This document shows, piece by piece, positions 1 through 12,271 of a stretch of DNA of 27,218 nucleotides. The position numbers and the translations under genes are program-made. The notes under the pieces are model-generated. The model made no database searches. It was not told where the DNA came from and saw nothing but the letters and a program-made list of their open reading frames with translations. Location: positions 1 to 27,218 of IMG/VR virus record IMGVR_UViG_3300037481_000254; one strand, given 5' to 3'. The stretch comes from a virus. The stretch's first letter is position 1. Each line of letters opens with the position of its first letter.

Positions 1-6
1 ACGCCG

Positions 7-351
7 ATGGATCGTATTCACGACAGGGACTGTGATGGGAGATGGTGGCTATACAACTTCGACGGCACCCTGTTCATTGTCCCGCTCCACAGGACCAAAA
101 TCAGCGTTGAAGTCGTGTACAAGAACATCAGCGACGACAGTATGCACCTCGAAATGTTCGAGCCTCACGAGATCCTGACCGAAAACCAGTTTGACCAAAT
201 ACCAGCCGAAGTGCTGGACTCTGAGTTCAATGTTGAAGTCACCGGCAGGCTTCCAACCGTCCATAGCAGCGAGTGTGCCCTTTTGAGTGGCGGAACCGAA
301 TGCACCTGCCCATCCATTGATGACTATGATGACGAGGAAGAAGATGAGTAA
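7..351 (+). CDS. Hypothetical acidic-tail protein, possibly 5'-incomplete
   Basis: I do not recognise this 114-residue protein. It has a mixed beta-rich N-terminal half, two W residues near the start, a Cys cluster near the C-terminus (C-A-L-L..C-T-C at about residues 90-101) and a strongly acidic D/E tail. The two codons before the ATG are open (ACG, CCG), so the true start may lie before the window. Its stop overlaps the start of the next gene by 8 bases, which supports translation as part of a phage operon. Function unknown. Confidence 0.6.
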   Translation: MDRIHDRDCDGRWWLYNFDGTLFIVPLHRTKISVEVVYKNISDDSMHLEMFEPHEILTENQFDQIPAEVLDSEFNVEVTGRLPTVHSSECALLSGGTECTCPSIDDYDDEEEDE

Positions 352-844
352 CATATTCAAAACTGAATCCATCCCGATTGTGGACAAGGAATACCTGTCC
401 GACATCGCTCAGAACCTGTGGCAGCTTCAATCATTCCAGCGAAGTGTTCGCATGTTCCTCTCCGAAGTGAAGCGGCCCCTCACCGGCATCGACAAAAACC
501 TCGCCTACCAAGTCGAGGAGCTGATGAAGGCCATCAAGCGCGGGTTTGTGGTCGAAGACGAGATCAATGAGGCCAACCAAAAGATCACCGACTACCGGAA
601 GGAGCTGGTCCCGTGGCTCAAGAAGATCTTGGAGTGGGCTGAAACCGGAGTGCTCACGTTTGACTCCTATGCAGGGACATTGTTCGAGGCCCCGCCAAAG
701 GACGACGCGCCAGACGTGGCCGACAAGGGTGACACTCCTGACCTGCCCGCTGACCTTCAGCCGAGGCCCAAGGTGTTCACAACGGAGAAGGCCGCTAAGC
801 CGAACAAGGGCAAGCCTGCGACGAAGGGGAAAAAGGCGAAATGA
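344..844 (+). CDS. Hypothetical helical protein with Lys/Pro-rich tail
   Basis: A 166-residue protein that I do not recognise. I chose the ATG at 344 because a GAGGAAG ribosome site lies just upstream and the start overlaps the previous stop; an upstream in-frame ATG at 287 lies deep inside the previous gene. Residues 1-120 look mostly alpha-helical and amphipathic. The last 50 residues are Pro/Asp-rich and then Lys-rich (K-A-A-K-P-N-K-G-K), a disordered basic tail that could bind nucleic acid. It overlaps the next gene by four bases (ATGA), so the two are probably translationally coupled. Confidence 0.65.
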   Translation: MSNIFKTESIPIVDKEYLSDIAQNLWQLQSFQRSVRMFLSEVKRPLTGIDKNLAYQVEELMKAIKRGFVVEDEINEANQKITDYRKELVPWLKKILEWAETGVLTFDSYAGTLFEAPPKDDAPDVADKGDTPDLPADLQPRPKVFTTEKAAKPNKGKPATKGKKAK

Positions 845-1158
845 GCGAAGGAGAGTCATCGGCAATTCAAGTCAGCATAGATCCCGAAGCTGTCAACAAG
901 ATGGTGTCGGAAGCGATCCTCAAAAGCGCGATTGGCAACAAGATCAAGTCAGCCATCGAGGGCGAGCTTTTGAGAATCAACAACAGCTACTCGAACCCGT
1001 ATGTTGGCGTCATTCAAAGTGTCATCAACGACATCATCAGGGATTTGGTCGCAACCCAACACTCAGACGCGATCAAGGAACAGGTACACAAGCTGGTCAC
1101 TGAGGAAAAGGTGAACAGCGTTGTTGAGACTATTTTCAAAAGGCTCATGGATAGGTAG
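841..1158 (+). CDS. Hypothetical helical protein
   Basis: A 105-residue protein starting at the ATG that overlaps the previous stop (ATGA). It is predicted mainly alpha-helical, with regular I/V/L spacing and no Cys, and with no membrane segment. The middle N-N-S-Y-S-N-P-Y stretch separates two helical halves. I do not recognise a family. Its place in a run of small coupled genes suggests an early or accessory phage function. Confidence 0.6.
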   Translation: MSEGESSAIQVSIDPEAVNKMVSEAILKSAIGNKIKSAIEGELLRINNSYSNPYVGVIQSVINDIIRDLVATQHSDAIKEQVHKLVTEEKVNSVVETIFKRLMDR

Positions 1159-1170
1159 CAAGGAGGCCCA

Positions 1171-1416
1171 ATGACTGAGCACATTGACGACGAAGAGGAA
1201 GTGAAGCCGCCACCTAGCCGACTCAAGCGTCATATGCCCTTGATGCTCGGAATGATGGCTGCTCTCGCAATGGCAGGTGGCGGAATGCCTGGAACAGGCT
1301 TTGGGCTCGGATTCGGTGGAGGCCGGAGCAAGGCGAAGGTGGAAACGAAAAAGCGCAACCAGGAACGAAACCGTGCAGCACAAAAAGCTGCCAAGAAGAA
1401 AGGAAAAAGGAAGTGA
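1171..1416 (+). CDS. Small protein: acidic head, Met/Gly-rich hydrophobic core, basic tail
   Basis: An 81-residue protein with an AAGGAGG ribosome site seven bases before the ATG. The N-terminal 12 residues are acidic. Residues about 22-35 form a Met/Ala/Leu hydrophobic stretch, followed by a Gly-rich run to about residue 51, then a strongly Lys/Arg-rich tail. The hydrophobic part could be a short membrane helix or a Gly-rich oligomerisation region; the basic tail could contact DNA, RNA or the inner membrane face. No family recognised. The 31-residue membrane-segment gene begins inside its stop codon. Confidence 0.6.
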   Translation: MTEHIDDEEEVKPPPSRLKRHMPLMLGMMAALAMAGGGMPGTGFGLGFGGGRSKAKVETKKRNQERNRAAQKAAKKKGKRK

Positions 1417-1508
1417 GCTTCAAATGCGGCCCTATTGAGGCCATCTTGATTATGTTGGCGGTTGTTGCGATTGGCGTGGCTGTCGCGTTCATTTATTCGG
1501 CACACTGA
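1413..1508 (+). CDS. 31-residue single-transmembrane micro-protein
   Basis: A GTG-initiated frame of 31 codons starting within the previous gene's last codons (GTGA overlap) and preceded by an AGGAAAAAGG purine-rich site. It encodes a short polar N-terminus followed by an uninterrupted hydrophobic helix of about 20 residues (A-I-L-I-M-L-A-V-V-A-I-G-V-A-V-A-F-I) and ends in S-A-H. This is a textbook single membrane segment. In a phage it could be a holin-like, spanin-associated or superinfection-type membrane peptide, but nothing specific can be assigned. Confidence 0.5.
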   Translation: MSFKCGPIEAILIMLAVVAIGVAVAFIYSAH

Positions 1509-1516
1509 GGTGAGGC

Positions 1517-1756
1517 ATGGGACTGGACTACTATGACATCAACCTAAACGGACGAGAACTGCGCCTGTTTGAAAAAACCCTGACTTACGAGCAGATCATC
1601 AAGCTCGCATTCGGTGAACACGCAAACACATCAATCCTGTACACAATCACCGTGCATCACAAGTCCCTTTCATGCACGATCAAGCGAGAAGAATTACTTC
1701 ACTTGACCTGCGGAACAACATGGAAGATCAACGTGGCAGATACGGGGTACGCATGA
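1517..1756 (+). CDS. Ubiquitin-like beta-grasp protein (Multiubiquitin-domain-like)
   Basis: A 79-residue protein with a GAGGTGAGG ribosome site. Its layout matches the Multiubiquitin (PF14452-type) beta-grasp pattern: a first strand with I-N-L-N-G-R-E (8-14), an L-T-Y-E-Q-I-I-K-L-A-F helix (22-32), an L-Y-T-I-T-V strand (41-46) and a closing G-T-T-W-K-I-N-V strand (66-73). That family normally sits with bacterial E1/E2-like conjugation genes. Here the domain is single and stands in a phage accessory run. The C-terminus is T-G-Y-A, not Gly-Gly, so conjugation competence is uncertain. No E1, E2 or deubiquitinase is visible in the window. The family match is from remembered pattern, not a search. 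Confidence 0.55.
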   Translation: MGLDYYDINLNGRELRLFEKTLTYEQIIKLAFGEHANTSILYTITVHHKSLSCTIKREELLHLTCGTTWKINVADTGYA

Positions 1757-2016
1757 AAATCGACGACTTCGTAATGGCCAGCAACACGTTCAGCGAAATG
1801 AAAAAGGCTGAAACCGAGCTTGAGAGGGTTTCGGTGCTTTTGGGCCGCGACATGCGAAACATCGACATCGTTATTCGTGACAATGGCAACTCGTCCAACA
1901 CGATTGAGATAAATGGATCTCGAAGTCCTGCGCTGGTCACGAGTATGATTCAGGAAGTTCGCAAGGTATTTCGCAACAAGTACAACGCATTCGCTGAAGA
2001 ATTTGAAAGGATATAG
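1753..2016 (+). CDS. Hypothetical protein, translationally coupled to the ubiquitin-like gene
   Basis: An 87-residue protein. The ATG at 1753 overlaps the stop of the ubiquitin-like gene (ATGA), which makes it preferable to the in-frame ATG at 1672. The N-terminal half looks helical (M-K-K-A-E-T-E-L-E-R-V), the middle contains short beta segments (N-I-D-I-V-I, N-T-I-E-I-N-G) and the end is a long helix. I do not recognise a family. The tight coupling suggests it may act together with the ubiquitin-like protein or the following Acb2-like gene. Confidence 0.6.
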   Translation: MKIDDFVMASNTFSEMKKAETELERVSVLLGRDMRNIDIVIRDNGNSSNTIEINGSRSPALVTSMIQEVRKVFRNKYNAFAEEFERI

Positions 2017-2019
2017 CTC

Positions 2020-2292
2020 ATGTTCGTAAACTCGCACCCATCAAACAGGATCACAGCAGAAAACTTGAAGGAGGTGATCTACTGGCACCGCCCGAGTCCT
2101 AACCAGATTCAGCGCATGGAAAACCTCGCGGCAAACTGCGAGCAACTGATGCAAGGAATACTGGACGCTGCCCCTGACTGTGCCGACAGAACGAAGGCGC
2201 TCCAATACGTCCGTGCAGCGCGGATGTGGGCCAATTCAGCCATCGCGTTGGAGCCAAACACGCCAGTGGATCACACGAGAGGCCAGGGATGA
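2020..2292 (+). CDS. Acb2/Tad1-hairpin-domain protein, probable anti-CBASS cyclic-nucleotide sponge
   Basis: A 90-residue protein with the layout of the Acb2/Tad1 hairpin-domain family: a Y-W-H-R-P-S-P-N-Q segment (21-29), a helix with E-N-L-A-A-N-C-E, an A-A-P-D-C-A-D-R-T-K-A-L turn (50-61) and the closing R-A-A-R-M-W-A-N-S-A-I-A-L helix (65-77). Characterised family members form hexamers that bind cyclic di- and trinucleotides and gcADPR-type signals, starving CBASS and Thoeris effectors. They act in the host cytoplasm early in infection. The gene is coupled to the exonuclease-like gene by ATGA. The assignment rests on recognised sequence pattern; ligand range cannot be told. Confidence 0.7.
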   Translation: MFVNSHPSNRITAENLKEVIYWHRPSPNQIQRMENLAANCEQLMQGILDAAPDCADRTKALQYVRAARMWANSAIALEPNTPVDHTRGQG

Positions 2293-2780
2293 AAACTATC
2301 CTTTGCGTGGACATCACCGTCACGCAGATGAACCAGATCGATGAGATCGGGCTCGCTGTTGCGTCGGACAACGTGTACCCATACGGCGTGGTGTTCAAGC
2401 GAGGGGATGACTTTCAGAGCTTTGTTGATTTCATGATGGGCTTCCACTCCAGCCGGTCGGTTCCATGGGCCTCATGGGGCTCAATCGACCGCGAGATACT
2501 GGAGTGGTTCCATCCACGACACCTCCCCACCAACCCAATGGGGTGTGTTCACTTAAACCTCAAGAACTACTACTCGGTTTTGGAAGGTGATGAAAACCCA
2601 ACCCTCAAGGCCGCGATGAAAAGGCTGGTCAGCGAGGAAGATGCACGACCAAAGTACACATCCGTTGCAGCGGAAGCGGCGGTGCAGTGTGCTAATATAA
2701 TGTTTGCGCTCATGAACAAATACAAGCAGAAGCCGATGCGATCAATCATCGAAAACTGCTTCGTCGAATCCTATGGATAG
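2289..2780 (+). CDS. DEDD 3'-5' exonuclease-like protein, catalytic residues apparently degraded
   Basis: A 163-residue protein whose start overlaps the Acb2-like stop (ATGA). The order of elements resembles small DEDDh exonucleases: a first strand I-L-C-V-D-I-T (4-10) followed by D-E-I-G (18-21), then W-A-S-W-G-S-I-D (60-67), H-L-N-L-K, and a basic region ending in a helix. In active enzymes the first motif is D-x-E and the last is H-x4-D; here the first reads D8-I-T10, and the region after K-Y-T-S-V-A-A-E-A lacks a clear H/D pair. It may be an inactive, nucleic-acid-binding derivative, or the family call may be wrong. Confidence 0.45.
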   Translation: MKTILCVDITVTQMNQIDEIGLAVASDNVYPYGVVFKRGDDFQSFVDFMMGFHSSRSVPWASWGSIDREILEWFHPRHLPTNPMGCVHLNLKNYYSVLEGDENPTLKAAMKRLVSEEDARPKYTSVAAEAAVQCANIMFALMNKYKQKPMRSIIENCFVESYG

Positions 2781-2789
2781 GGAGGGAAT

Positions 2790-2915
2790 ATGTTGCAGGA
2801 TGACTATGAGAATGATGTTTACCGTTACTTTCGGAACCTCGCATTCGCGGTCATGATCTTTTTCACGTTTGCATTTTTCGGGACATTGATCGCTATTTAC
2901 TTGGCAAAAAGCTGA
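2790..2915 (+). CDS. 41-residue single-transmembrane micro-protein
   Basis: A frame of 41 codons preceded by a strong GGAGGG site at 2781-2786. The N-terminus is acidic and polar (residues 1-12), followed by a Phe-rich hydrophobic helix covering about residues 17-38 and a short K-S end. This is a convincing single membrane segment with the polar N-terminus outside the helix. A holin-like or membrane-sensor role is possible, but no family is recognised. Confidence 0.55.
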   Translation: MLQDDYENDVYRYFRNLAFAVMIFFTFAFFGTLIAIYLAKS

Positions 2916-2935
2916 ACAACGAACAGGAGAACGCC

Positions 2936-3319
2936 TTGAAAACGATACGACGATGTGAAACCTATTTGAATTTCATCAGGAAGCAGGAATGTTGCGTCAC
3001 TGGACATCGAGTTGAAGGAGAAGTTTGCGCTCATCATGTCAGGTTGGGCGCGAGTGCGGGCACCGGCATCAAGCCAAGCGATTTCAGGTGCGTGCCACTG
3101 TGTCACTCGGCACACCAGGAGCTTCATCAGCTCGGAGAAAAGGCCTTTTGGGGTAGGGCCGGGAAAGATCCGCATGAGCTGATCCTGGGCTTCATGATGA
3201 AGTTTGCCGCAGAGAAGAGGATGGGACATAACGTGCTCATCATGGCCCTGGAAAACGAGATCGCCAATCAGCTCCAATCGAAGTTCCACGCTGTCAGCGT
3301 TGAGGAGTGTGGAGAATGA
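2936..3319 (+). CDS. HNH-type nuclease (Ref/DUF968-like zinc-bound fold)
   Basis: A 127-residue protein starting at TTG, chosen because AGGAGA lies five bases upstream. It shows the compact treble-clef/HNH pattern seen in DUF968/Ref-like phage nucleases: Y-L-N-F-I-R then C19-C20-V-T-G, A-H-H (32-34), A-G-T-G-I-K-P-S-D-F (41-50), V-P-L-C-H (53-57) with H60, and E-L-H (62-64). Histidines at 33/34, 57, 60 and 64 and the cysteines would bind metal and form the active site. Such enzymes nick or cut DNA, often in phage recombination or host DNA degradation. The C-terminal 55 residues are helical. Fairly sure of the family, not of the role. Confidence 0.7.
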   Translation: MKTIRRCETYLNFIRKQECCVTGHRVEGEVCAHHVRLGASAGTGIKPSDFRCVPLCHSAHQELHQLGEKAFWGRAGKDPHELILGFMMKFAAEKRMGHNVLIMALENEIANQLQSKFHAVSVEECGE

Positions 3320-3648
3320 AATCACCATTTTCAAAGCGTGTGATTCGCGCCCTCGAACTCCTGTGCGAAGCCTATGAGAAGAGATCAGGCATCGGCACCC
3401 GATACTCCAACTATTCGCTCATCAACGAGCTTCAAAGTCATGGCTTGCTGTTTTCGGTGCGTGGCAGAGGGGGTGGAGTGTTCCTGGGCCGTGAGCCCGA
3501 GGAGATCACCCTGTACGACGTGATGGTGGCCGTGGAAGGAGCCTTGGAGAAGGACGAAACACCAGCCGGCCTGCTCAACATGTTCCTCGCCCGTCAGCTC
3601 AAACACGCGAAGCTCGCCGACTTCGTTTCGCAGACCATTGAGGTGTGA
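3316..3648 (+). CDS. Rrf2-like winged-helix regulator, copy 1
   Basis: A 110-residue protein starting at the ATG that overlaps the HNH stop. It carries the wing and hinge signature of Rrf2-family regulators: R-G-R-G-G-G-V-F-L (49-57) followed by P-E-E-I-T-L-Y-D-V-M-V-A-V-E-G (61-75). Rrf2 proteins are dimeric DNA-binding repressors or activators. The cysteine cluster that binds an Fe-S centre in IscR/NsrR is absent, so cluster sensing is unlikely. The next gene encodes a paralogue, and the two share an identical 18-base stretch over the P-E-E-I-T-L codons. Probably a phage transcription regulator. Confidence 0.6.
   Translation: MKSPFSKRVIRALELLCEAYEKRSGIGTRYSNYSLINELQSHGLLFSVRGRGGGVFLGREPEEITLYDVMVAVEGALEKDETPAGLLNMFLARQLKHAKLADFVSQTIEV
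3495..3512 (+). repeat. 18-base exact repeat in tandem Rrf2-like genes, copy 1
   Basis: GCCCGAGGAGATCACCCT, identical to 3867-3884 and spaced by 372 bases (124 codons). It lies in the same structural position of both Rrf2-like proteins, pointing to tandem gene duplication. Confidence 0.7.
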
Positions 3649-4467
3649 GTGTTTCGCCTGACGCAGCGAACTGAGGACGCTTGGAACGCGCTGGTTTACA
3701 TGGCTGTCACCGACGAGAAGGCCGGGAAGTGCGTCATGCAGCAAGGCCCGGACCTCAAGCCATACATCAAGGCTTCTGAGTTCCACGAGATCGTCATCAA
3801 CCTTGCCAAGGGCGGCATCCTCGCCAGCCATCGAGGACGCAACGGTGGCTACACACTTTTCATGAGGCCCGAGGAGATCACCCTTGTGCTGGTCATGAAA
3901 ACAATGGAGAGGGGAGCCGCGGCGACGAACGGCACCGCGTTTGGCATCGTCAGCCGGATCATCGAACGCAAGATGCAACAAATCACAGTGGCCGACTTCA
4001 TGGAGGTCGAGTCCGATAAGGAGCCTGACATGCTCGAAGAGTTGAAGAAGGAAGTGAAAAGGGCAAGGGCCGAGTCCACCTGCCCGCAGCGCACCCGGTT
4101 CAGTGACGACCTCAAGAGGCGACTCATCAAGGCCATGGAGGAGCACGGGTCGCACATCATTTCCGCCGAGATGAAGATCAACAAACCGCAGTTGTATCGC
4201 TGGCGCACGGAATTGGGTGGTGGAGTGGTCAAGGATGAACCCGATAGGGTTGAGCAGAAGGAGTCCGCGGTGACTCAGGTTGAGGAAGCTCCAGCCGAGG
4301 AGTCGATGCCCCCACCACGGGAGCACCAGAGTTTGGTGACACCACAGCCGGAAATTCGAGTGTACCGCCGAGGGGATCGCCCTCAAACCCAAACTCCTGT
4401 GGATGCCAGAGTCGAGGCCGACATCACCCTGCCCTCGGGCACCTTCATCCGGATCTACGGAGCATGA
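3649..4467 (+). CDS. Rrf2-like winged-helix protein with C-terminal extension, copy 2
   Basis: A 272-residue protein starting at a GTG directly after the previous stop. Residues 1-85 are Rrf2-like: T-Q-R-T-E-D-A-W-N-A-L-V-Y-M-A (5-19), a helix E-I-V-I-N-L-A-K-G-G-I-L (47-58), R-G-R-N-G-G-Y-T-L (62-70) and R-P-E-E-I-T-L (73-79). Residues about 145-187 (a basic K-R-R-L-I-K-A-M-E-E-H-G stretch, then K-P-Q-L-Y-R-W-R) look like a second helix-turn-helix of transposase or repressor type. The remaining C-terminus is Pro/Glu-rich and probably disordered, with a short beta end. It could be a two-headed DNA-binding regulator or a silencing-type protein. No Fe-S cysteine triad. Confidence 0.6.
   Translation: MFRLTQRTEDAWNALVYMAVTDEKAGKCVMQQGPDLKPYIKASEFHEIVINLAKGGILASHRGRNGGYTLFMRPEEITLVLVMKTMERGAAATNGTAFGIVSRIIERKMQQITVADFMEVESDKEPDMLEELKKEVKRARAESTCPQRTRFSDDLKRRLIKAMEEHGSHIISAEMKINKPQLYRWRTELGGGVVKDEPDRVEQKESAVTQVEEAPAEESMPPPREHQSLVTPQPEIRVYRRGDRPQTQTPVDARVEADITLPSGTFIRIYGA
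3867..3884 (+). repeat. 18-base exact repeat in tandem Rrf2-like genes, copy 2
   Basis: Identical to 3495-3512, encoding the P-E-E-I-T-L hinge of the second Rrf2-like protein. Confidence 0.7.
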
Positions 4468-4622
4468 GGTTCTCGCACGTCCCAAGGAGGCACAAACACG
4501 AGTGGATGGACTCCTGCGGGGATGGGCAGTTCAAGCGACCGCGAAGGAAGGGATGGTTCAAGAAAATGCAGCGAAAAAAATGGCTCAAACGATGCCGAAA
4601 GGCGATGGAGGTGGACGAATGA
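4464..4622 (+). CDS. 52-residue Arg/Lys/Trp-rich basic protein
   Basis: A short frame of 52 codons linked by ATGA overlaps at both ends, to the Rrf2-like gene and to the following Cys-rich gene, which is the pattern of real genes in this region. The product is very basic, with K/R runs at residues 23-29 and 33-46, and contains three internal Trp. It could bind nucleic acid. It is too short for a firm call, and a competing frame (4403 onward) covers the same bases. Confidence 0.45.
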   Translation: MRFSHVPRRHKHEWMDSCGDGQFKRPRRKGWFKKMQRKKWLKRCRKAMEVDE

Positions 4623-4864
4623 AACGACTTCTCACCTGTGAGTTTTTGAGCCCTCCGACATGGGCAGGGATGCAAAAGCTGTGCGATGGATGCCGAGGGA
4701 TCTGGAAATGCAACGAACTCCGCAAAATGAAGGACGCAGAGTATGAACGAACGAAACCCGCTCGACCTGTACGAAACGCCAAAGTGGATGACCGACTACC
4801 TTCTAAAGGAGTGGCTCCTCGCAAAGTGGGGGCGAAACCTCGCCAAGGAAAACAAGGAAGGTAG
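4619..4864 (+). CDS. Small Cys-rich protein with basic tail overlapping the methyltransferase gene
   Basis: A protein of 81 codons starting at the ATG that overlaps the preceding stop. Cysteines at residues 7, 22, 25 and 31 (C-D-G-C then C-N) could hold a zinc ion. The last 40 residues are Arg/Lys/Pro-rich and read across the first 122 bases of the methyltransferase gene in another frame, an unusually long overlap for this genome. Either the tail is genuine dual-coding sequence, or the frame drifted past its original stop. No family recognised. Confidence 0.5.
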   Translation: MKRLLTCEFLSPPTWAGMQKLCDGCRGIWKCNELRKMKDAEYERTKPARPVRNAKVDDRLPSKGVAPRKVGAKPRQGKQGR

Positions 4865-5408
4865 GCTGTACACCGTCTTCGAGCCTTGCGCCGGGACTGG
4901 CAGCATCGCCACCGTGCTTGAGGAGTTTGGGTTTTGGTTGGTGCAGCGCAACGACATCAATCCAGCCATGCCCGGGATCTACTCGGCAAAGGACGCATCG
5001 AAGGAGGAGATGTGGAAGGAGCTGTTCCCCGAGCCCCGCTTCCAGCTCGACTACGTTATCTCCAACCCGCCTTACTCGACCAGCGAGGACTGCTTCAAGA
5101 TCATAACTCATGCTAGGCGCTATGCTCGGTTTGGCATGGCGATGCTACTTAGGATAAGCTGGCTTGAACCAACGATGCTGAGAAGCGACTGGCTCGTAGC
5201 GAATCCTCCCGACACCGTGCTTGTGCTACCCCGTTGGAGCTTCAAGCAGAATGGCGCAACCGACTCGGTGACGTGTGCATGGATGATTTGGGACTCACTT
5301 TTCAGGCGCGGAGTGAAGGTTGCTCCGAGGTCAATCAAGGCGAATGAACAGGAGAATGATGATGGAGATCGAGCTGAAGCCGATGCAGGTGTGGAAACGG
5401 AAAAGTGA
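4743..5408 (+). CDS. N6-adenine-type DNA methyltransferase
   Basis: A 221-residue class I SAM-dependent methyltransferase. It begins with the D-L-Y-E-T-P-K-W signature common to phage adenine methylases, has the SAM-binding motif E-P-C-A-G-T-G-S (47-54), an R-N-D-I-N acidic-loop motif near residue 75, and the catalytic S-N-P-P-Y motif (107-111) that transfers methyl to adenine N6. The domain ends near W-M-I-W-D-S; the last 35 residues are polar and overlap the next gene. It has no associated restriction nuclease here, so it is likely an orphan enzyme protecting phage DNA from host restriction or altering host methylation. Confidence 0.75.
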   Translation: MNERNPLDLYETPKWMTDYLLKEWLLAKWGRNLAKENKEGRLYTVFEPCAGTGSIATVLEEFGFWLVQRNDINPAMPGIYSAKDASKEEMWKELFPEPRFQLDYVISNPPYSTSEDCFKIITHARRYARFGMAMLLRISWLEPTMLRSDWLVANPPDTVLVLPRWSFKQNGATDSVTCAWMIWDSLFRRGVKVAPRSIKANEQENDDGDRAEADAGVETEK

Positions 5409-5748
5409 CGGGAAATTCGTCGTGCTGCTCATGGCTGACCTACTCATGTTTGGAAGTGAGAAGTCCGCCGTCATGTATCAGGAGCTGGACATCGCACCGG
5501 AAGGCAAGGCAACCCCAGGGCAGAAATGGGCAAGGCCAACGGAGTCATTCATGAATGGCTTTTGCCCGATTGGTGAGGTGAAACGCAATGAAGAGAGACT
5601 TGATGACAAGGGTGATGGAGGAGTTCGACCTGAAGTTGAGGCCGGAGCACATGATCCTGAAGATATTCAAGGGCAAGGAGCTGACGCTGGCGGATGTGAT
5701 CAAGTTCGCGGTGAGGCAAGCGGCGACGGACTGTATGACGGCGCGTGA
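5362..5748 (+). CDS. Hypothetical protein with long 3' overlap
   Basis: A protein of 128 codons. Four in-frame ATGs lie at 5344-5362; the AGGAGA at 5350-5355 favours 5362. Residues 1-70 look like a genuine small beta domain (M-Q-V-W-K-R-K-S-D-G-K-F-V-V-L-L, then Y-Q-E-L-D, K-W-A-R-P, F-M-N-G-F-C-P-I). From about residue 75 the composition turns to Gly/Asp/Glu-rich sequence of out-of-frame character, and this part overlaps the next gene by 161 bases. The start also overlaps the methyltransferase end. Function unknown; the C-terminal part may be functionally neutral. Confidence 0.5.
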   Translation: MEIELKPMQVWKRKSDGKFVVLLMADLLMFGSEKSAVMYQELDIAPEGKATPGQKWARPTESFMNGFCPIGEVKRNEERLDDKGDGGVRPEVEAGAHDPEDIQGQGADAGGCDQVRGEASGDGLYDGA

Positions 5749-5782
5749 CGAGGCAAGAAAGCAACTGGATGAACTCGATTGA
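5588..5782 (+). CDS. Hypothetical small helical protein
   Basis: A 64-residue protein with GAGGTGA about five bases upstream of its ATG. It is charged and almost wholly helical, with a central L-T-L-A-D-V-I-K-F-A-V-R-Q-A-A segment. It starts inside the previous reading frame and ends 15 bases before the endolysin start. No family recognised. Confidence 0.55.
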   Translation: MKRDLMTRVMEEFDLKLRPEHMILKIFKGKELTLADVIKFAVRQAATDCMTARDEARKQLDELD

Positions 5783-5797
5783 GCAAAGGAGATCGAT

Positions 5798-7165
5798 ATG
5801 ACGTTTTCATGGAACAAGTTTATTGAGACTGCGGCGTTTTACCCTTTTGAATATGAGTGGATGAGGAACCTGATTGTCGCGCAGTCCATCATCGAGAGTG
5901 GACGAGGAGTGACGCCCTTGTCCTCCGGGCACTGCAACTTCAACGGCATGAAGTTTCGCAGCACGGTTGCTTCATTCGGTGGCAAGAAGTTCCAGTATTT
6001 CACGGACAGTGAGCCGTTCCGTGACGAGGCTGGAAATGAGGTTGCAGCAGGCACTCCAGGAGCGAAGAGATGGGACTGGTTTTTCGAGTTCCCTGACTAT
6101 GAAACCGCCATTGAAACATGGTGCGCGTTCTGGTTCAGGAAGGACGGCGATTGGGTTCCCTACCCGAAGGTCCGAGCAAAAGATCCTGAAGTTATGGCTG
6201 GCATGAAGGCTTTTCTTGAGTACATCGGCCCAATTTACTGCCCGTTTTTCACCAACTCCCATGACACCAGCTATGCCGACTACATCATCACCAAATGCCT
6301 GCCTGAAGCTCGTGCTGCTGTTATAAAAGCTCAGTCAGAACTCCAGCCGCCTCCTTCGGTCAAAAAGTCCTATCGAGGTGAGCTTGATCCCGTGACCATG
6401 CGCCTTCGCATCATTCAAGAACCAGGAGCCAAGGTGTTTGCCATCGCCGACACTGACAACGGCGTGAACTTCAAGCTGGTGGCCGCACTCAAGACGGTGG
6501 AGGATCTTGGTGGATACCGGACACTGGTCAAAACCTGGGACCATCCCAGCAGCCTTCCCCCTCCTGTTCAACCCAAGCCCAAGCCCAACCCAGGAGCCAA
6601 GAGGATTTTGCTCGACCCAGGCCACAGCGACCTCCACACAGGAGCTGATGGAACCACGGATGCAGTCCACGAAGAGTTCCTGAACCGCCTCCAGGCTTCA
6701 ATCGTCCAGCCGATCCTCCGCGATGCAGGGTTCGTCTGTGACATCTACGACCCATTGAGCGACGTGCTTTCCGAGATCGGCGGCAGGGCCAAGGACTATG
6801 ACATGTTCATCTCCTTCCACCACAACGCTACGGGCCACAAGGACTACTACACCTGCGTCATGGTTCACGCCGAGCTTGCCAAGGCCGCGTCCAGGCTGTT
6901 CGCCTCTCGCGTGGCATTGAGGGTCAGTGCAGCGATTGGGCTCAAGGTGCTGAACTTCGGTGACGGCCAGCTTCCCGGCGTTTATCCCAACAGCCTTGGT
7001 GTGCTTCGGGCCGCAGAGAACTCGGGATGTCCCGGGCCGTGCGTCCTGGTCGAGTCCTACTTCGTTGATGCCTATGGCGACCTGGACTTTTGCAGGGAGA
7101 GGTCAATCAAGGCAGCCAAGGCCATCGCGACAGCGGCGGCTGAATGGTACGGGGTGCAGGCATGA
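5798..7165 (+). CDS. Two-domain endolysin: glucosaminidase-like plus N-acetylmuramoyl-L-alanine amidase (Amidase_3)
   Basis: A 455-residue peptidoglycan hydrolase with an AAAGGAG site. Residues about 1-185 resemble the glucosaminidase (GH73-like) fold: A-Q-S-I-I-E-S-G-R-G (28-37) with the likely catalytic Glu33, then C-N-F-N-G-M-K. A linker of small repeats and a Pro/Lys-rich hinge (about 250-265) leads to an Amidase_3 domain: D-P-G-H276, E292/E293, S-F-H-H-N with H341/H342, and V-L-V-E419-S-Y, which supply the zinc ligands and catalytic Glu. It would cut both the glycan chain and the stem-peptide amide at lysis. There is no signal peptide, so release would need a holin; the small membrane proteins upstream are candidates. 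Confidence 0.8.
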   Translation: MTFSWNKFIETAAFYPFEYEWMRNLIVAQSIIESGRGVTPLSSGHCNFNGMKFRSTVASFGGKKFQYFTDSEPFRDEAGNEVAAGTPGAKRWDWFFEFPDYETAIETWCAFWFRKDGDWVPYPKVRAKDPEVMAGMKAFLEYIGPIYCPFFTNSHDTSYADYIITKCLPEARAAVIKAQSELQPPPSVKKSYRGELDPVTMRLRIIQEPGAKVFAIADTDNGVNFKLVAALKTVEDLGGYRTLVKTWDHPSSLPPPVQPKPKPNPGAKRILLDPGHSDLHTGADGTTDAVHEEFLNRLQASIVQPILRDAGFVCDIYDPLSDVLSEIGGRAKDYDMFISFHHNATGHKDYYTCVMVHAELAKAASRLFASRVALRVSAAIGLKVLNFGDGQLPGVYPNSLGVLRAAENSGCPGPCVLVESYFVDAYGDLDFCRERSIKAAKAIATAAAEWYGVQA

Positions 7166-7344
7166 GCGAAGCATCCCGCGCCACACCAGACTCCGTAAAG
7201 CGCATGATCGAGGAGCTTCCTGACAATTCCATGCCAGCCATCTTCAACTTCATCGTCCTTGAGTGCATGAAGCGGAACACATTCAAGGGCAAGTCGCTGG
7301 CGAAGCTGGTGGAATCAATTGAGAAGGCAACCGGAGGTAAGTGA
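7162..7344 (+). CDS. Hypothetical small helical protein
   Basis: A 60-residue protein starting at the ATG that overlaps the endolysin stop (ATGA). It is short and helical with one moderately hydrophobic helix (M-P-A-I-F-N-F-I-V-L-E) that is too polar for a clear membrane segment. No family recognised. Its coupling to the endolysin is suggestive only of shared expression. Confidence 0.55.
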   Translation: MSEASRATPDSVKRMIEELPDNSMPAIFNFIVLECMKRNTFKGKSLAKLVESIEKATGGK

Positions 7345-7766
7345 TGAAAGTCGCCTTTATCCAGTTCGAGGTGAACGACTCGAAGGACGTGAAACTTTTT
7401 GCCGAGATAGTGGCTTCCATCGGCGTCAGCGTCCCATCATTGGCCGCGCCTGCTGTTCATGCGAACATGACAGAGGAACAACAACGGGCCTCAATGACGT
7501 GCGTGACGAATCAATTGGCGAAAGCCATTGGAACGCCAAAGCCAAAGCTGGACACCAAGCAGAGAGCAAGGGTGGCGGCGAAGGCGCGGTGGGAAAAAAA
7601 GCGTGCTGATGATGAAAAAAAGCTGGAGAAGGCGACTGAGGAAAAGGAATACCTCGAAGTGAGTGACCCAATCCAGTTTGACCCGAACGCGCAGCCCACA
7701 GGTGAACCACTGGTAGAAGACGAACCAATCGACGGTAGGCACATCATCGAGGGAAACTGGAGGTAG
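7344..7766 (+). CDS. Hypothetical protein with basic coiled-coil centre
   Basis: A 140-residue protein. The ATG at 7344 is preferred because GGAGG sits six bases upstream and it shares a base with the previous stop (TGATG). Residues 1-30 look beta-alpha (M-K-V-A-F-I-Q-F-E-V). Residues about 70-103 form a Lys/Arg/Ala-rich helix followed by Glu/Lys heptads, probably a coiled coil. The C-terminus is acidic. Two genes upstream of the large terminase, it could be a divergent small terminase subunit, but no motif confirms this. Confidence 0.55.
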   Translation: MKVAFIQFEVNDSKDVKLFAEIVASIGVSVPSLAAPAVHANMTEEQQRASMTCVTNQLAKAIGTPKPKLDTKQRARVAAKARWEKKRADDEKKLEKATEEKEYLEVSDPIQFDPNAQPTGEPLVEDEPIDGRHIIEGNWR

Positions 7767-7769
7767 CCC

Positions 7770-7991
7770 TTGAGCCGACAACTCGGAATCACTGAAGTGG
7801 AGACTTACATAGTGGTCCCGCAGCGTCGGGGGATTTGTCATCAGTGCGATGTGATTTACATCGGCAAGAAGGAAACGGTAAAATGCCCTGCCTGTGGGAA
7901 GGTTTTTCAAACGGTTGACATGCTATCGTCGGTGAAGATACCAACTTCCCAATGGATTTATCCTCCGGGGAAACGACGGAAGCGGGGATGA
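7770..7991 (+). CDS. Zinc-ribbon protein
   Basis: A 73-residue protein starting at TTG, selected because GGAGG lies six bases upstream. It contains a two-knuckle zinc ribbon, C23-H-Q-C26 and C39-P-A-C42, followed by a short basic end (K-R-R-K-R-G). Such ribbons bind nucleic acid or protein partners. Its stop lies just before the terminase GTG start, so it is co-transcribed with terminase; a role in packaging or late transcription is possible but not shown. Confidence 0.6.
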   Translation: MSRQLGITEVETYIVVPQRRGICHQCDVIYIGKKETVKCPACGKVFQTVDMLSSVKIPTSQWIYPPGKRRKRG

Positions 7992-7992
7992 A

Positions 7993-9729
7993 GTGGACCA
8001 GAGAACAGTTTCCGAGCAGGAGTACCTTGCCCGACTCCTCCAGTTCGACAAGGATTTAGATCGGACGCCACGCCTTAAATATGCGCTCATGTACCATCAG
8101 AATATCCGTGGCGAGCCGATGACTTTCCATGACAAGCCGTACCTGATCTCGATTTACAAGGACACCGCCAAGCGAATCACAATGCAATCATCGGTGCAGA
8201 CCGGAAAGTCGGAGTTCCTGATAATATCGGCCCTAAGCTATGCGGAACGCGGCTTTCAGGTGATGTATGTATTGCCTCAAGAGGACATCCGAAACACCTT
8301 CGTTGCCAACCGAATCGATCCGCTGATCAAGCGGGTGCCGTATTATGCTTCGCAGATGCGGATAGCTGGAGGAACGTCGGCCAATCGCGGCCTCAAGCAC
8401 TACGGACGCGGCACCATTTTCTTCGTGTACTCGGGCTCAACAACAGCGTTCATTGAAAAGCCCATTGATGCGATTGTGTCGGATGAAGTCGATCGATTTG
8501 ACCTGCACAACTACGAAAAGGCAGATGACCGCATGACGGCATCGCCTCACAAAATCAAGTACGAAGCGTCCAACCCCTCCGTGGATAACTACGGCGTGAA
8601 CAGATCGTACCTTGAGAGTGACCAGCGCCAGTTTTTCGTGAAGTGCCCTCACTGCCAGCAGTGGCAGATCATGGACTGGTTTCGCAACGTAGTCATGCAG
8701 ACTGACGATGAAAAATACATCCTGCGCGACCGCGAATGGGATCGTGGATCGAATCGCGACATATACGTTTTCTGCATCAAATGCTCCAAGCCACTCGACA
8801 GGTTCACAACCAAGGCCGTGTGGGTGCCAAAGTATCCTGAAATCAAGGACCACCACGGCTACCACATCCACCAGATGATGTCGGGATACGTCCTTGTCCA
8901 TGAAATGTGGTCCAAGTTCCTCAAGGGACTCGAAGACGACGTTGCGATGCAGGTGTTTTTCAACTCCATCCTCGGCACAACCTATGCAATGAAGGGCGCT
9001 AAGCTCACGGACGCCCTCCTCAATCGCTGCAAGAGGAAATACCTCATGCCGGTGACGGGCTCGGCCTGCGTCATGGGCATCGACGTTGGCAAGCGACTCC
9101 ATGTTGTCGTGCGGGAACCTTTGCCAGATGGTACGCTCAGGCTTGTGTTTGCAGGAACCCTAGCCGAGTTCGAGGATGTCGATGAGTTGATGACGAGATA
9201 CCAAGTCAGGTGTTTCGTCGTTGACTGTATGCCGGAAACCAGGAAGTCGAAGGATTTAGTTTCGAGATTTCGTGGCAAGGGCTACATGGCGCGATACACC
9301 AACGGCCTCGTGGAGCTGGCGGTGGACAACGACAAGCGCGTCGTTTCAGCCGACAGAACGATGTTGATGGATCGGGTGAACAAGGCGTTCCAACAGGAGC
9401 AACTCTTACTTCCAGCAAACGCTCAATCGCTTGATGGAGGTGACTATTATGCCCTGCTCAAAACGCCAACCAGGATCTTTGACGAAGAACGAAACCAATT
9501 CACCTGGGTCGGAGATCCCGACCACTATTTCCACGCCGAGGTTTACTGTTACTGCGCTCACAAGTCGGCTGGGGATTTCAGAGTCACTGGGATCGACCTT
9601 GGGAAGCCTGCCTACGAAAAAGCCGAAGCGCCCGAGGATTCCATGTTCCCACCGGGAACTCCTCAGAACATCATCGCCCACTACAAGGCCATGTTTGATG
9701 GGATGGCAAGCGAGTCAAGGGCGAAGTAA
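7993..9729 (+). CDS. Terminase large subunit (GpA-like)
   Basis: A 578-residue packaging motor that pumps phage DNA into the prohead and cuts it. The ATPase half has a Walker A Q69-T-G-K72-S73 and Walker B with D164-E165. A zinc-finger insertion, C218-P-H-C221 and C261-I-K-C264, is characteristic of the lambda GpA branch. The nuclease half contains M-G-I-D364-V-G-K and a second acidic strand with D411, matching the RNase H-like metal site. GTG start at 7993 directly after the zinc-ribbon gene. Length is near the usual 550-650. The portal gene follows after 41 bases. No separate small subunit was recognised. Confidence 0.85.
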   Translation: MDQRTVSEQEYLARLLQFDKDLDRTPRLKYALMYHQNIRGEPMTFHDKPYLISIYKDTAKRITMQSSVQTGKSEFLIISALSYAERGFQVMYVLPQEDIRNTFVANRIDPLIKRVPYYASQMRIAGGTSANRGLKHYGRGTIFFVYSGSTTAFIEKPIDAIVSDEVDRFDLHNYEKADDRMTASPHKIKYEASNPSVDNYGVNRSYLESDQRQFFVKCPHCQQWQIMDWFRNVVMQTDDEKYILRDREWDRGSNRDIYVFCIKCSKPLDRFTTKAVWVPKYPEIKDHHGYHIHQMMSGYVLVHEMWSKFLKGLEDDVAMQVFFNSILGTTYAMKGAKLTDALLNRCKRKYLMPVTGSACVMGIDVGKRLHVVVREPLPDGTLRLVFAGTLAEFEDVDELMTRYQVRCFVVDCMPETRKSKDLVSRFRGKGYMARYTNGLVELAVDNDKRVVSADRTMLMDRVNKAFQQEQLLLPANAQSLDGGDYYALLKTPTRIFDEERNQFTWVGDPDHYFHAEVYCYCAHKSAGDFRVTGIDLGKPAYEKAEAPEDSMFPPGTPQNIIAHYKAMFDGMASESRAK

Positions 9730-9770
9730 ACTCATAAACAGCAAGCATACCAATTCAGAAAGGGACTGCT

Positions 9771-11444
9771 ATGGCCAAATCAAACCCAAGTAGTGATCAC
9801 AAGGTTCCCACTCCAGCCGAGCTTGATCAGCGCGTGAGAGAGTCAAGCCAGGGGCGGCTTGGGTTCGGTGACGTGCTGAAGTACATGGCCCTCGGCATGA
9901 CTCCCTCGGCCCCTCGCCTGCCAGAGCAAGCCTACGGTGCCGCCAGCTACTATGGCGGCTACCAAAAGGGCTACTCAGGGACCAACAACGCCAGAGGAAC
10001 GCTGAGCTTCAACCTGCTCCGGCAGATCTCCGAGCGGTCCTCTTTGCTGGCCTCAATCGTGTCCAAGCGCCAGTTCCAGGTTTCCCGGTTCGCCCGGATC
10101 GCCCGGAAAACGAAGCACGGTGAGGTTGGTTTCCGTGTCATGCACCGAAGAAGCGGCGACGACAACTTCACGGTGCCGGATGGCTACAGCGACATTTGTC
10201 ATGAAGCCGAAGAAATGCTCATGTCACCCTGGACGGTGTTTTGGAACGAAGGTGTCATTTTCCAGCAGATCGAGCCGTGTCTTGACGATTTCATGTCAAA
10301 AGTGATGGAGGATCACCTAGTCATCAACAGGCCAACTGTTGAATTAGGTGTGGACATGTATGGTGTTCCCAGAGCTTTCGGTGCGATTGATGGCGCGAAC
10401 GTCATCCCGACCTTTTCCGCGCTCAAGTTCTTGACAGCGAAAGCTCGCCTCACCACCGACAACAAGTGGCAGGAAAACTACTCAGGAATGCGCTCAATGA
10501 TGCAACGCATGAGCGACGTGTACGAGGTGGACATCACCGAGGAGACTGAGTACATTTACATGCTCAATGGCAAGCCTGTACGCACGTTTCCCATGGGCCG
10601 AATCATCATCGCGCCGTTCCTTCCAAGCACAGACGTTCGGTTTGCTGGCTATCCGCGCTCACTCACGGAAAAGGCGATCTTCGCCATCCTCGCTGAGATC
10701 ATGGCTATGAGCGCCAACCTTCGATACTTCCAGACCGGCAACATGACGGAAGTGATCCTCGCGATGAAGGGCGACTACCAGGACAAACACATCGCAGACC
10801 TGACCAACATCCTCCAGGCCAACATGAGCGGCATCGAGGGCATGTTCAAGGTTCCCCTGATCGCTCTGCCCGAGGCTGACGACCTCATGGTTCACCAGCT
10901 TAGGCAAAACCACAAGGATATGTTGTTTGACTTCTACATACAGAAGCTAACAAACATGACGTGTGCCATTTTTTCCATGCACCCAAGTGAGATCAACGAA
11001 GCTCCACGAGCGGGAGACAACAAGGGTGCGCTCCAATCCGCCAATCAGGAAGTGCAAATCAGCATGGCCCAGGAGCAGGGCCTTGAAACCTCGTTGAACC
11101 ATTTCAAGACTCACATTTTCGACCCAATCCTTCGGCAGATCGATCCCGACCTCGTGATGGAGTGGGACTATGGGCGAAGCGAGCAGGAGATTGTCACCCT
11201 CGCAACCAGCAAGGCCACCTTCGTCACCGTGAACGAGCAACGCAAGATGTGTGGCATGGAGCCATTGCCCAAGGAGCAAGGCGGCGAAGTGGTCGCCAAC
11301 CCGTTTATCCAGGCCAAAAATCAAATGGAAGCTCAGCAGAAGCAAATGGCACAGCAGCAGCAAATGGGTCAGCAAGGCCAACCAGGAGGCCAGCCTGGGG
11401 GCGATGTAGGAGGGGCAGATGAATTTGGAAAACCGCCGTTCTAG
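9771..11444 (+). CDS. Portal protein
   Basis: A 557-residue protein with an AAAGGGA site. Position directly after the large terminase, length, and the overall pattern identify it as the portal, the twelve-subunit ring at one capsid vertex through which DNA passes. Visible portal-like features are the N-terminal helical segment with S-L-L-A-S-I-V, a beta-rich clip/wing middle, the long stem-type helix region around A-I-F-A-I-L-A-E-I-M, and N-H-K-D-M-L-F-D-F-Y in the crown side. The last 35 residues are Gln/Gly/Pro-rich and disordered. The cold-shock gene starts inside its 3' end. Confidence 0.75.
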   Translation: MAKSNPSSDHKVPTPAELDQRVRESSQGRLGFGDVLKYMALGMTPSAPRLPEQAYGAASYYGGYQKGYSGTNNARGTLSFNLLRQISERSSLLASIVSKRQFQVSRFARIARKTKHGEVGFRVMHRRSGDDNFTVPDGYSDICHEAEEMLMSPWTVFWNEGVIFQQIEPCLDDFMSKVMEDHLVINRPTVELGVDMYGVPRAFGAIDGANVIPTFSALKFLTAKARLTTDNKWQENYSGMRSMMQRMSDVYEVDITEETEYIYMLNGKPVRTFPMGRIIIAPFLPSTDVRFAGYPRSLTEKAIFAILAEIMAMSANLRYFQTGNMTEVILAMKGDYQDKHIADLTNILQANMSGIEGMFKVPLIALPEADDLMVHQLRQNHKDMLFDFYIQKLTNMTCAIFSMHPSEINEAPRAGDNKGALQSANQEVQISMAQEQGLETSLNHFKTHIFDPILRQIDPDLVMEWDYGRSEQEIVTLATSKATFVTVNEQRKMCGMEPLPKEQGGEVVANPFIQAKNQMEAQQKQMAQQQQMGQQGQPGGQPGGDVGGADEFGKPPF

Positions 11445-11679
11445 CGAGCGGTATTTGGGAAAGGTGCTGTGGTTCAACTCGAACCTTGGGTATGGATTCA
11501 TCATGCCAGAGGACAAAGTTGTGAATAAAGGCGTTGACTTGTTCGTTCATTATCACAGCATCGTGCAGGGCGGATTCAAGACGCTCATGATGAACGACAT
11601 CGTTGAGTTCGCACTCGGGGAAAACAAAAAAGGCCCATGTGCGCTGGATGTGAAGCTCGTGCAGAGGAGTCAGTCATGA
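11419..11679 (+). CDS. Cold-shock-domain protein
   Basis: An 86-residue protein with one OB-fold cold-shock domain: G-K-V-L-W-F-N (14-20), RNP1-like L-G-Y-G-F-I-M, RNP2-like D-L-F-V-H-Y-H, and the closing strand D-V-K-L-V. These domains bind single-stranded RNA or DNA and act as RNA chaperones. The ATG lies 26 bases inside the portal gene with AGGAGG about six bases upstream. Its placement between portal and head genes, rather than in an early operon, is unusual and suggests late expression or a virion role. Confident of the fold. Confidence 0.8.
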   Translation: MNLENRRSSERYLGKVLWFNSNLGYGFIMPEDKVVNKGVDLFVHYHSIVQGGFKTLMMNDIVEFALGENKKGPCALDVKLVQRSQS

Positions 11680-12059
11680 TCGCAGCATTTCAAATCCGCA
11701 AGGGTGCAACCGCTCCGTGGCTGGAGGTGGTGCTCACTCAATCAGGCAGACCAATCCCATGGGAACAGCCGAGCTTTCCCTGTCCACCCAACGTGAAGGA
11801 AGCTCCAATCGACCTCACCGGCATGACTGTGAAGGCGAAGATGTACGGTTGTGGCCGCACTCAGCCCGAGCATGTGGTGTTCGGCATCACCAGCGTGAAG
11901 GACGCAGTAAATGGCGTCATCATTCACAAATGGGATCCAGAGGACACCGCTGACGTTGGCTACTTCATGATGAGCTTCGAGGTGTCAGACTCGAACACAG
12001 GAGCCATCCTCATGTGGCCGTACCTGCGCGAGCAGTTCATGATCGAGGTGACGCCGTGA
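11676..12059 (+). CDS. BppU-N-like beta-sandwich protein
   Basis: A 127-residue protein starting at the ATG overlapping the cold-shock stop. The layout (F-Q-I-R-K-G-A near the start, D-L-T-G-M-T-V-K-A-K-M, then G-V-I-I-H-K-W-D-P-E-D-T-A-D-V-G-Y-F, and a final strand) matches the beta-sandwich of baseplate/upper-tail BppU N-terminal or related phage accessory domains. Next to the portal it could instead be a neck or head-decoration component. The role is uncertain; the fold call is moderate. Confidence 0.5.
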   Translation: MIAAFQIRKGATAPWLEVVLTQSGRPIPWEQPSFPCPPNVKEAPIDLTGMTVKAKMYGCGRTQPEHVVFGITSVKDAVNGVIIHKWDPEDTADVGYFMMSFEVSDSNTGAILMWPYLREQFMIEVTP

Positions 12060-12271
12060 CTTCACCCTACCAGCTAAGACAGGCCATGGGCGGATTCAGC
12101 GCCGAGGAACATGAGGCTTTTTATTACATCATGGACAAGATCCGCAAAGGGAAACCCACACTCAGCTCCTCAGAAGCAATCGACGAGGGCCTTGACCAGG
12201 GCATGTTCGTGCTTGGCAAGGAAGGCGAACTCCGCGTGAACAAGGACTACTTCAATGGCAAGACTGTTTGA
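12056..12271 (+). CDS. Hypothetical small protein
   Basis: A 71-residue protein starting at the GTG that overlaps the preceding stop (GTGA). It appears helical at first (E-E-H-E-A-F-Y-Y-I-M-D-K-I) and has a short beta end with G-K-E-G-E-L-R-V-N. No family recognised. Its last 17 bases overlap the start of the SNF2-like gene. Confidence 0.6.
   Translation: MTSPYQLRQAMGGFSAEEHEAFYYIMDKIRKGKPTLSSSEAIDEGLDQGMFVLGKEGELRVNKDYFNGKTV

Follow-up and report, generated by a model that had tools for sequence, protein, structure and literature searches.

Organization of the locus

The window, by which we mean the whole stretch of DNA analysed, is the entire virus record IMGVR_UViG_3300037481_000254 (27,218 bases), which is possibly fragmentary. 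A GpA-type large terminase was identified at 7993-9729 by Pfam and PHROG-type profile matches, and a portal gene (9771-11444), an amidase-type endolysin (5798-7165), and helicase-like genes were also present. Two very large plus-strand ORFs downstream of the portal gene (12255-15752, 1165 aa; 17145-22334, about 1730 aa) combined helicase parts (phrog_62 and phrog_1967) with long low-complexity stretches. No match to Phage_integrase or Resolvase was obtained in 7 of 7 records tested, which are possibly fragments, and a lytic lifestyle of the phage is plausible.

The genes studied here lie on the plus strand. A DUF968/HNH-type nuclease gene (2936-3319; PF06147, 38.5 bits against a cut-off of 27.8) is followed by gp1 (3316-3648), which encodes a protein of 110 aa from the ATG at 3316 to the TGA at 3646-3648 and is preceded by a Shine-Dalgarno-like GAGGAG motif at 3302-3307. 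The end of the HNH gene and the start of gp1 share four nucleotides (ATGA). The next gene, gp2 (3649-4467, 272 aa), begins with a GTG at 3649, the base directly after the gp1 TGA and in the same frame, and its stop codon is at 4467. A gp1-gp2 readthrough protein across this one TGA was set aside since gp2 has its own Shine-Dalgarno-like motif (GAGG, 3640-3643, within the end of gp1); it was also disfavoured by the N-terminus of gp2, which aligns with the N-termini of bacterial Rrf2 proteins.

About 1 kb upstream of the pair, at 2020-2292 (plus strand), a 90-aa protein matched PF24729 (Acb2/Tad1 hairpin family; 32.9 bits, cut-off 27), and we take it to be a probable anti-CBASS/anti-Thoeris nucleotide sponge. 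Downstream of the pair, a DNA methyltransferase-like gene was found at 4743-5408 (plus strand; phrog_799, 105.5 bits); in a related contig, L004, the HNH and phrog_2693 genes are followed by one of 200 aa that bears a similar NPP motif.

The sequence-only reading had proposed a look for palindromic sites upstream of phage and host genes. No palindrome was detected near the two genes in positions 1-8000 of the window with arms at most 40 bases apart, and the two inverted repeats obtained under the same limit (5543-5560 and 5925-5966) lie away from gp1 and gp2. In positions 1-12300, there were 4 promoter-like sites against 4.9 in shuffled sequences and 8 terminator-like sites against 12.5.

Relatives of the locus

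A terminase search gave three close contigs, and a terminase alignment gave nine further ones. PF02082 (Rrf2) exceeded its cut-off in 2 of the 13 related records, window included, namely the window and the record of contig L003; several of the 13 are short and possibly fragments, so that the absence of Rrf2 carries little weight. In L003 a single Rrf2 gene (258-608) follows the HNH gene, and its product shared 37% identity with gp1 (111 residues aligned), scoring 38.6 bits against PF02082 (cut-off 30) and 30.7 bits against TIGR00738 (cut-off 73.3). Neither a second Rrf2 gene nor an HTH_Tnp_1 match was found in the L003 record. Between gp1 and the L003 protein, the dimerization helix (13 of 24 residues identical) and the wing (9 of 19) were best kept, and helix 1 through the recognition helix (14 of 43) and helix 4 (6 of 18) were less so.

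Searches of viral_contigs with single proteins and with alignment A1 confirmed no related Rrf2 loci, and the search with alignment A3 recovered L003 only. An HNH-anchored search yielded four loci. Two belonged to the L003 and L004 contigs, and PF02082 matched neither of the two other records. The L004 record likewise gave no PF02082 match. In the place of gp1 it carries, after the HNH gene, a gene for a phrog_2693 protein (1428-1925) with the same ATGA overlap; by eye this protein consists of a zinc ribbon plus a winged helix, and it had no clear match among PDB sequences.

The four-nucleotide overlap of the HNH gene with the next gene is thus common to the window, L003, and L004, which would fit gp1 being an accessory subunit of the DUF968/HNH nuclease, translated together with it, instead of a transcription factor. 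However, the overlapping gene of L004 belongs to phrog_2693, a family of unknown function, in a record without an Rrf2 match, and we regard this explanation as improbable. Four-nucleotide gene overlaps are common in phages.

gp1 and gp2 as diverged Rrf2 homologues

The sequence-only reading had described two adjacent Rrf2-like genes, and both ORFs encoded products above the PF02082 cut-off of 30 bits. The match of gp1 (44.9 bits) was limited to profile positions 43-86 of 132, and that of gp2 (40.3 bits) covered positions 2-87. Against the NCBIfam Rrf2 superfamily model TIGR00738, the scores were 38.4 bits for gp1 and 43.1 bits for gp2; because both missed the cut-off of 73.3, we describe the proteins as diverged homologues, not as full Rrf2 members.

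The AF2 model of gp1, built with 17 aligned sequences, had a pLDDT of 90 and a pTM of 0.81. The alignments behind the AF2 models included bacterial Rrf2 rows, which favours an Rrf2-like result, so the models do not test the homology independently. In a Foldseek search against solved structures, CymR, RsrR, and IscR were closest to gp1, with E values from 4.1e-7 (CymR, PDB 2y75). VIA gave a Z of 13.2 for gp1 with CymR (2.8 Å, 106 residues) and of 13.1-13.2 with IscR (2.1 Å over 101 and 2.4 Å over 100 residues). The N-terminal domain of gp2 (residues 1-123, 3649-4017) matched the same structural entries, with a TM of 0.85 by target length to IscR 4hf2. The winged-helix fold proposed earlier was therefore predicted for gp1 and for the N-domain of gp2, and gp1 is modelled as an Rrf2 fold with a wing and a C-terminal dimerization helix. 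As a separate observation, the sole viral match to the gp2 model at E ≤0.001 was BFVD M4M9K8, an unnamed 111-aa viral protein with an Rrf2 fold (E 1.1e-5, TM 0.72 by target length).

The gp1 model contains helices at residues 7-21, 33-41, 66-74, and 83-97 (DSSP). Its wing, formed by strands 45-48 and 54-57 and bearing RGRGGG, corresponds to 3448-3486 (DSSP of the model and alignment A4). No helix was present between residues 22 and 32, which we take to be the position of alpha-2 in Rrf2 proteins, and the model thus lacks a complete helix-turn-helix (HTH) of alpha-2 and alpha-3. Helix 1 begins 44 residues before the wing in gp1, 43 in L003, and 58 in gp2. All 14 bacterial rows of alignment A4 fall within 54-61, so that gp1 and L003 each lack 10 or more residues ahead of the wing. 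In the gp2 model, residues 26-41 were non-helical with a pLDDT of about 65-73. Canonical DNA reading appears doubtful for gp1, because alpha-2 is missing from its model, and may be so for gp2, whose equivalent stretch is non-helical in its model; the loss of alpha-2 in the gp1 model argues against a textbook HTH repressor.

Relationship between gp1 and gp2

The two proteins were 37% identical over 73 aa (E 2e-11). They had been reported to share an identical 18-base block, and the sequence GCCCGAGGAGATCACCCT indeed occurs exactly at 3495-3512 and at 3867-3884 (plus strand), 372 bases apart. It encodes PEEIT(L), which is an Rrf2 family consensus. Redrawing the codons of the two proteins according to the usage of this phage gave a common stretch of at least 18 bases in 23 of 5000 trials (0.0046), and in the DNA around the block 61 of 150 bases (41%) were identical in register. 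At the nucleotide level, the block is mildly more than codon bias would give. A recent tandem duplication was rejected on the 41% in-register identity and the tied best matches of the Rrf2 part of gp2 (gp2N).

Those best blastp rows were L066 (48.1 bits), L022 (46.6), L024 (46.2), and gp1 (46.2), with L003 at 27.3. Independent best matches had been named as evidence against paralogy; the pairing of gp1 with L003 was clear, and gp2N tied with bacterial rows and gp1 within 2 bits. A tree was built from 31 rows, comprising gp1, gp2N, L003, and 28 bacterial rows; L020, L027, L031, L049, L054, L058, L063, and L064 were left out as the same or nearly the same gene and L051 and L060 as mis-read ORFs. 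gp1 and L003 formed a clade (support 100/98), and gp2N was placed on a long branch apart from them. Since gp1, gp2N, and L003 formed one clade in 8% of the bootstrap trees, with no rejection by the AU test (p 0.284), the proposed paralogy of gp1 and gp2 was not established. Judging from these comparisons, gp2N may descend from an old duplication or from an independent capture.

Occurrence of Rrf2 genes in phages

Rrf2 proteins had been called rare in lytic phages; our searches of phage records agreed with the rarity, and this phage is plausibly lytic. gp1 had no match in 50,697 phage records, and gp2 matched one record (E 0.5). A DNA pattern of the Rrf2 wing found 16 stretches in viral_contigs, of which six were Rrf2 ORFs by reading, a lower bound because the pattern was exact. 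The four of these six that were scanned (L076, L078, L081, and L084) passed Pfam Rrf2, and L077 and L083 are nearly the same as L076. By comparison, Rrf2 was matched at E 1 in 14 of 14 bacterial control genomes and over the cut-off in 12.

When the L078 protein was used for tblastn, 21 of the 50,697 phage records matched. Seventeen of them were opened, and 15 held bacterial-type Rrf2 genes. Wing-to-LxD distances (defined below) could be measured in 13 of the 15 and were 61-71, counted from one residue earlier than our other loop figures; in L100, L105, and L106 the pattern also matched an earlier site (58-63), and the later site was taken. The L104 frame has a stop after 89 residues, and the wing of L107 falls outside the pattern. 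The neighbour context of the bacterial-type genes was taken from annotation for L099 and from the neighbouring genes for five others. Among these phage-labelled records, L099 (CAKLQH020000011.1) is annotated iscR-iscS-iscU-iscA-hscBA, and L094 (MT835613.1) and L095 (MT835488.1) have isc/suf-like neighbours by eye; all three probably represent bacterial DNA filed among the phages.

The other two opened records were judged to be genuine phage contexts and carry compact Rrf2 proteins: Citrobacter phage Chris1 (UOL51134.1, 'IscR') and a homologue in Klebsiella phage Kp4865-4. Like gp1 and gp2 these proteins are phage-borne; they are 123 aa long, with no Cys after the wing and a shortened C-terminal region (41-43). 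The Chris1 protein matches PF02082 at positions 4 to 86 and so retains the HTH region, whereas the match of gp1 starts at 43. Both records have one Rrf2 match, and the Pfam result for Chris1 contained no second HTH. L078 (IMGVR_UViG_3300034158_000052) and L081 (IMGVR_UViG_2710264500_000007) encode similar proteins of 123-127 aa without Cys after the wing, with the HTH region present (profile from position 2 or 4) and one Rrf2 match per record; unlike in the window, their neighbours look by eye like temperate-phage early genes. The Chris1 gene, annotated IscR, is flanked by exonuclease VIII on one side and the cro/cII region on the other. Short Rrf2 genes lacking Cys after the wing thus occur near recombination, replication, or immunity genes in Chris1 (annotated) and in L078 and L081 (by eye). 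Compact Rrf2 proteins are hence already known in other phages, one of them annotated as IscR. In the literature covered, from which most subscription journals were absent, we found no paper that linked the Rrf2 family with a phage-encoded protein or an iron-sulfur cluster regulator with a phage genome.

The wide distribution of Rrf2 genes in the bacterial control genomes bears on a decoy mechanism, in which gp1 (or gp2) would pair with a host Rrf2 regulator and block it, thereby freeing the iron, NO, or cysteine genes of the host during infection. Conservation of the dimerization helix and the wing, with the sensor loop and alpha-2 lost, is consistent with such a role. On the other hand, over whole rows of alignment A4, gp1 is 24-32% identical to bacterial Rrf2s, and we consider a decoy quite unlikely.

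Loss of the Fe-S sensor loop

According to PMC9973013, three conserved Cys are present in the majority of Rrf2 homologues. As a measure of the loop, we counted the residues that separate the wing (xGxxGG) and the C-terminal LxD-like motif; there were 51 in gp1, 52 in gp2, and 52 in L003. No Cys was present in this interval in any of the three, in line with the earlier statement that gp1 and gp2 lack the Fe-S cysteines, and none has the three conserved Cys after helix 4 that characterize Fe-S-sensing Rrf2 proteins. The Rrf2 part of gp1 has a single Cys (residue 17), as does that of gp2 (residue 28).

Measured with named anchors, every one of the 28 bacterial tree rows had a distance of 63-73, and five of them (L022, L024, L055, L056, and L059) also had no Cys there. 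The named anchors gave 69 for L021, 70 for L055, and 65 for L065; a looser pattern, which put the end motif in the wrong place in L021 (52) and L055 (86) and missed it in L065, was discarded. The four other genes judged to lie in phage context gave 57 (L078), 50 (L081), 41 (Chris1), and 43 (Kp4865-4), the end anchor being less certain in the last two. All seven phage-context genes were shorter than every measured bacterial row, in a set assembled after looking, with anchors picked by eye and with gp1, gp2, and L003 not being independent data points. L076 and L084 from the viral contigs have full-length loops (69) and bacterial-looking neighbours by eye, and they were kept out of the phage count by judgement.

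As in IscR, NsrR, and RirA, gp1 and gp2 have the RGxxGG wing, the PEEIT-helix 4, and the C-terminal helix; they differ from these proteins in having no Cys ligands and a deleted loop, and gp1 also in the absence of alpha-2 from its model. CymR, the cysteine regulator of Bacillus, is an Rrf2 protein without an Fe-S cluster. It resembles gp1 in fold and in having no Fe-S ligands, but possesses helix alpha-2. Two Firmicute records without Cys after the wing (L102 and L108), which we take to be CymR-like, have a wing-to-LxD distance of about 61 residues versus 51-52 in gp1 and gp2. By this measure, the sensor loop of gp1, gp2, and L003 is deleted, beyond mutation of its ligands.

Loss of the loop and of alpha-2, together with the sparse distribution among the related records, would also be expected if gp1 and gp2 were functionless, decaying host-derived genes. 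Yet the ORFs are intact with Shine-Dalgarno-like motifs, and the 37%-identical relative in L003 keeps the frame, the fold motifs, and the gene order, making decay very improbable.

The C-terminal tail of gp2

The long tail with a possible second HTH attributed to gp2 by the sequence-only reading was supported by PF01527 (HTH_Tnp_1, IS66 TnpA-like; 4087-4272), narrowly, at 24.9 bits on the protein against a cut-off of 24.1; a DNA search gave 27.6 bits. The tail model, of lower confidence, consists of three helices (residues 153-188), a linker partly below pLDDT 50, and C-terminal strands at residues 235-271 (4351-4461; DSSP of the AF2 model, pLDDT about 59-73) that include ITLPSGTFIRI. This order of HTH, linker, and C-terminal strands resembles the IS66 accessory protein TnpA (NF047595), from which gp2 differs in its sub-cut-off score (34.7 bits against 74) and in the Rrf2 domain fused in front. 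The tail alone had no match at E 1 among plasmids or PDB sequences.

These features raise the possibility of a split regulator, in which gp1 would be a small modulatory protein with an incomplete HTH. By heterodimerizing with gp2 through the C-terminal helix that both share, gp1 would control gp2, and gp2 would read DNA with the HTH of its tail. Such a division fits the adjacency of the genes (TGA, then GTG), the C-terminal helix kept in both proteins, and a gp1 model without alpha-2 beside a gp2 with a separate HTH. However, L003 has a relative of gp1 without gp2, so that gp1 must work alone there, and the Rrf2 domain of gp2 is as close to bacterial proteins as to gp1; we consider the split unlikely, although the least so of the alternatives. 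The absence of gp2 from L003 and of alpha-2 from the gp1 model likewise disfavours a simple two-protein switch.

Proposed function and implications

Our preferred reading, to which we assign a probability of about one half, is that gp1 and gp2 are sensor-less, dimeric, phage-adapted regulators of the Rrf2 fold; confidence in it is limited because the gp1 model lost alpha-2. The data show the homology, the predicted fold, the deleted loop, the missing alpha-2 of the gp1 model, the gene overlap, and the domain architecture; from these we infer that the two proteins dimerize, bind DNA, and regulate. The Rrf2 scaffold, comprising the first helix, the recognition helix, the RGxxGG wing, helix 4, and the C-terminal dimerization helix, has been kept, and the loop that bears the Fe-S ligands in IscR and NsrR has been cut out. 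With this loop lost, the proteins would be constitutive dimers whose activity is set by their own dose and not by iron, NO, or cysteine, and they may tune phage or host promoters during infection. gp1 would be the conserved core, coupled to the HNH gene via the four-base overlap. gp2 would be an added protein whose flexible tail bears a likely DNA-binding HTH, and DNA reading may have been moved or added to this second HTH.

A more speculative extension, which we hold with little confidence, is that phages repeatedly excise the Fe-S loop to give compact sensor-less Rrf2 proteins. Here the HTH-less gp1 would pair with gp2 or a host Rrf2 protein, and gp2 would regain DNA binding via the IS66-TnpA-like HTH, the result being an anti-regulator at the protein level derived from a sensor.

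A short wing-to-LxD distance together with the absence of Cys may serve as a simple signature for distinguishing genuine Rrf2 genes of phages from bacterial DNA that carries a phage label. Bacterial Rrf2 proteins set iron-sulfur, NO, and cysteine physiology, and a phage class with the dimer helix and wing retained but the sensor deleted would suit overriding that control.
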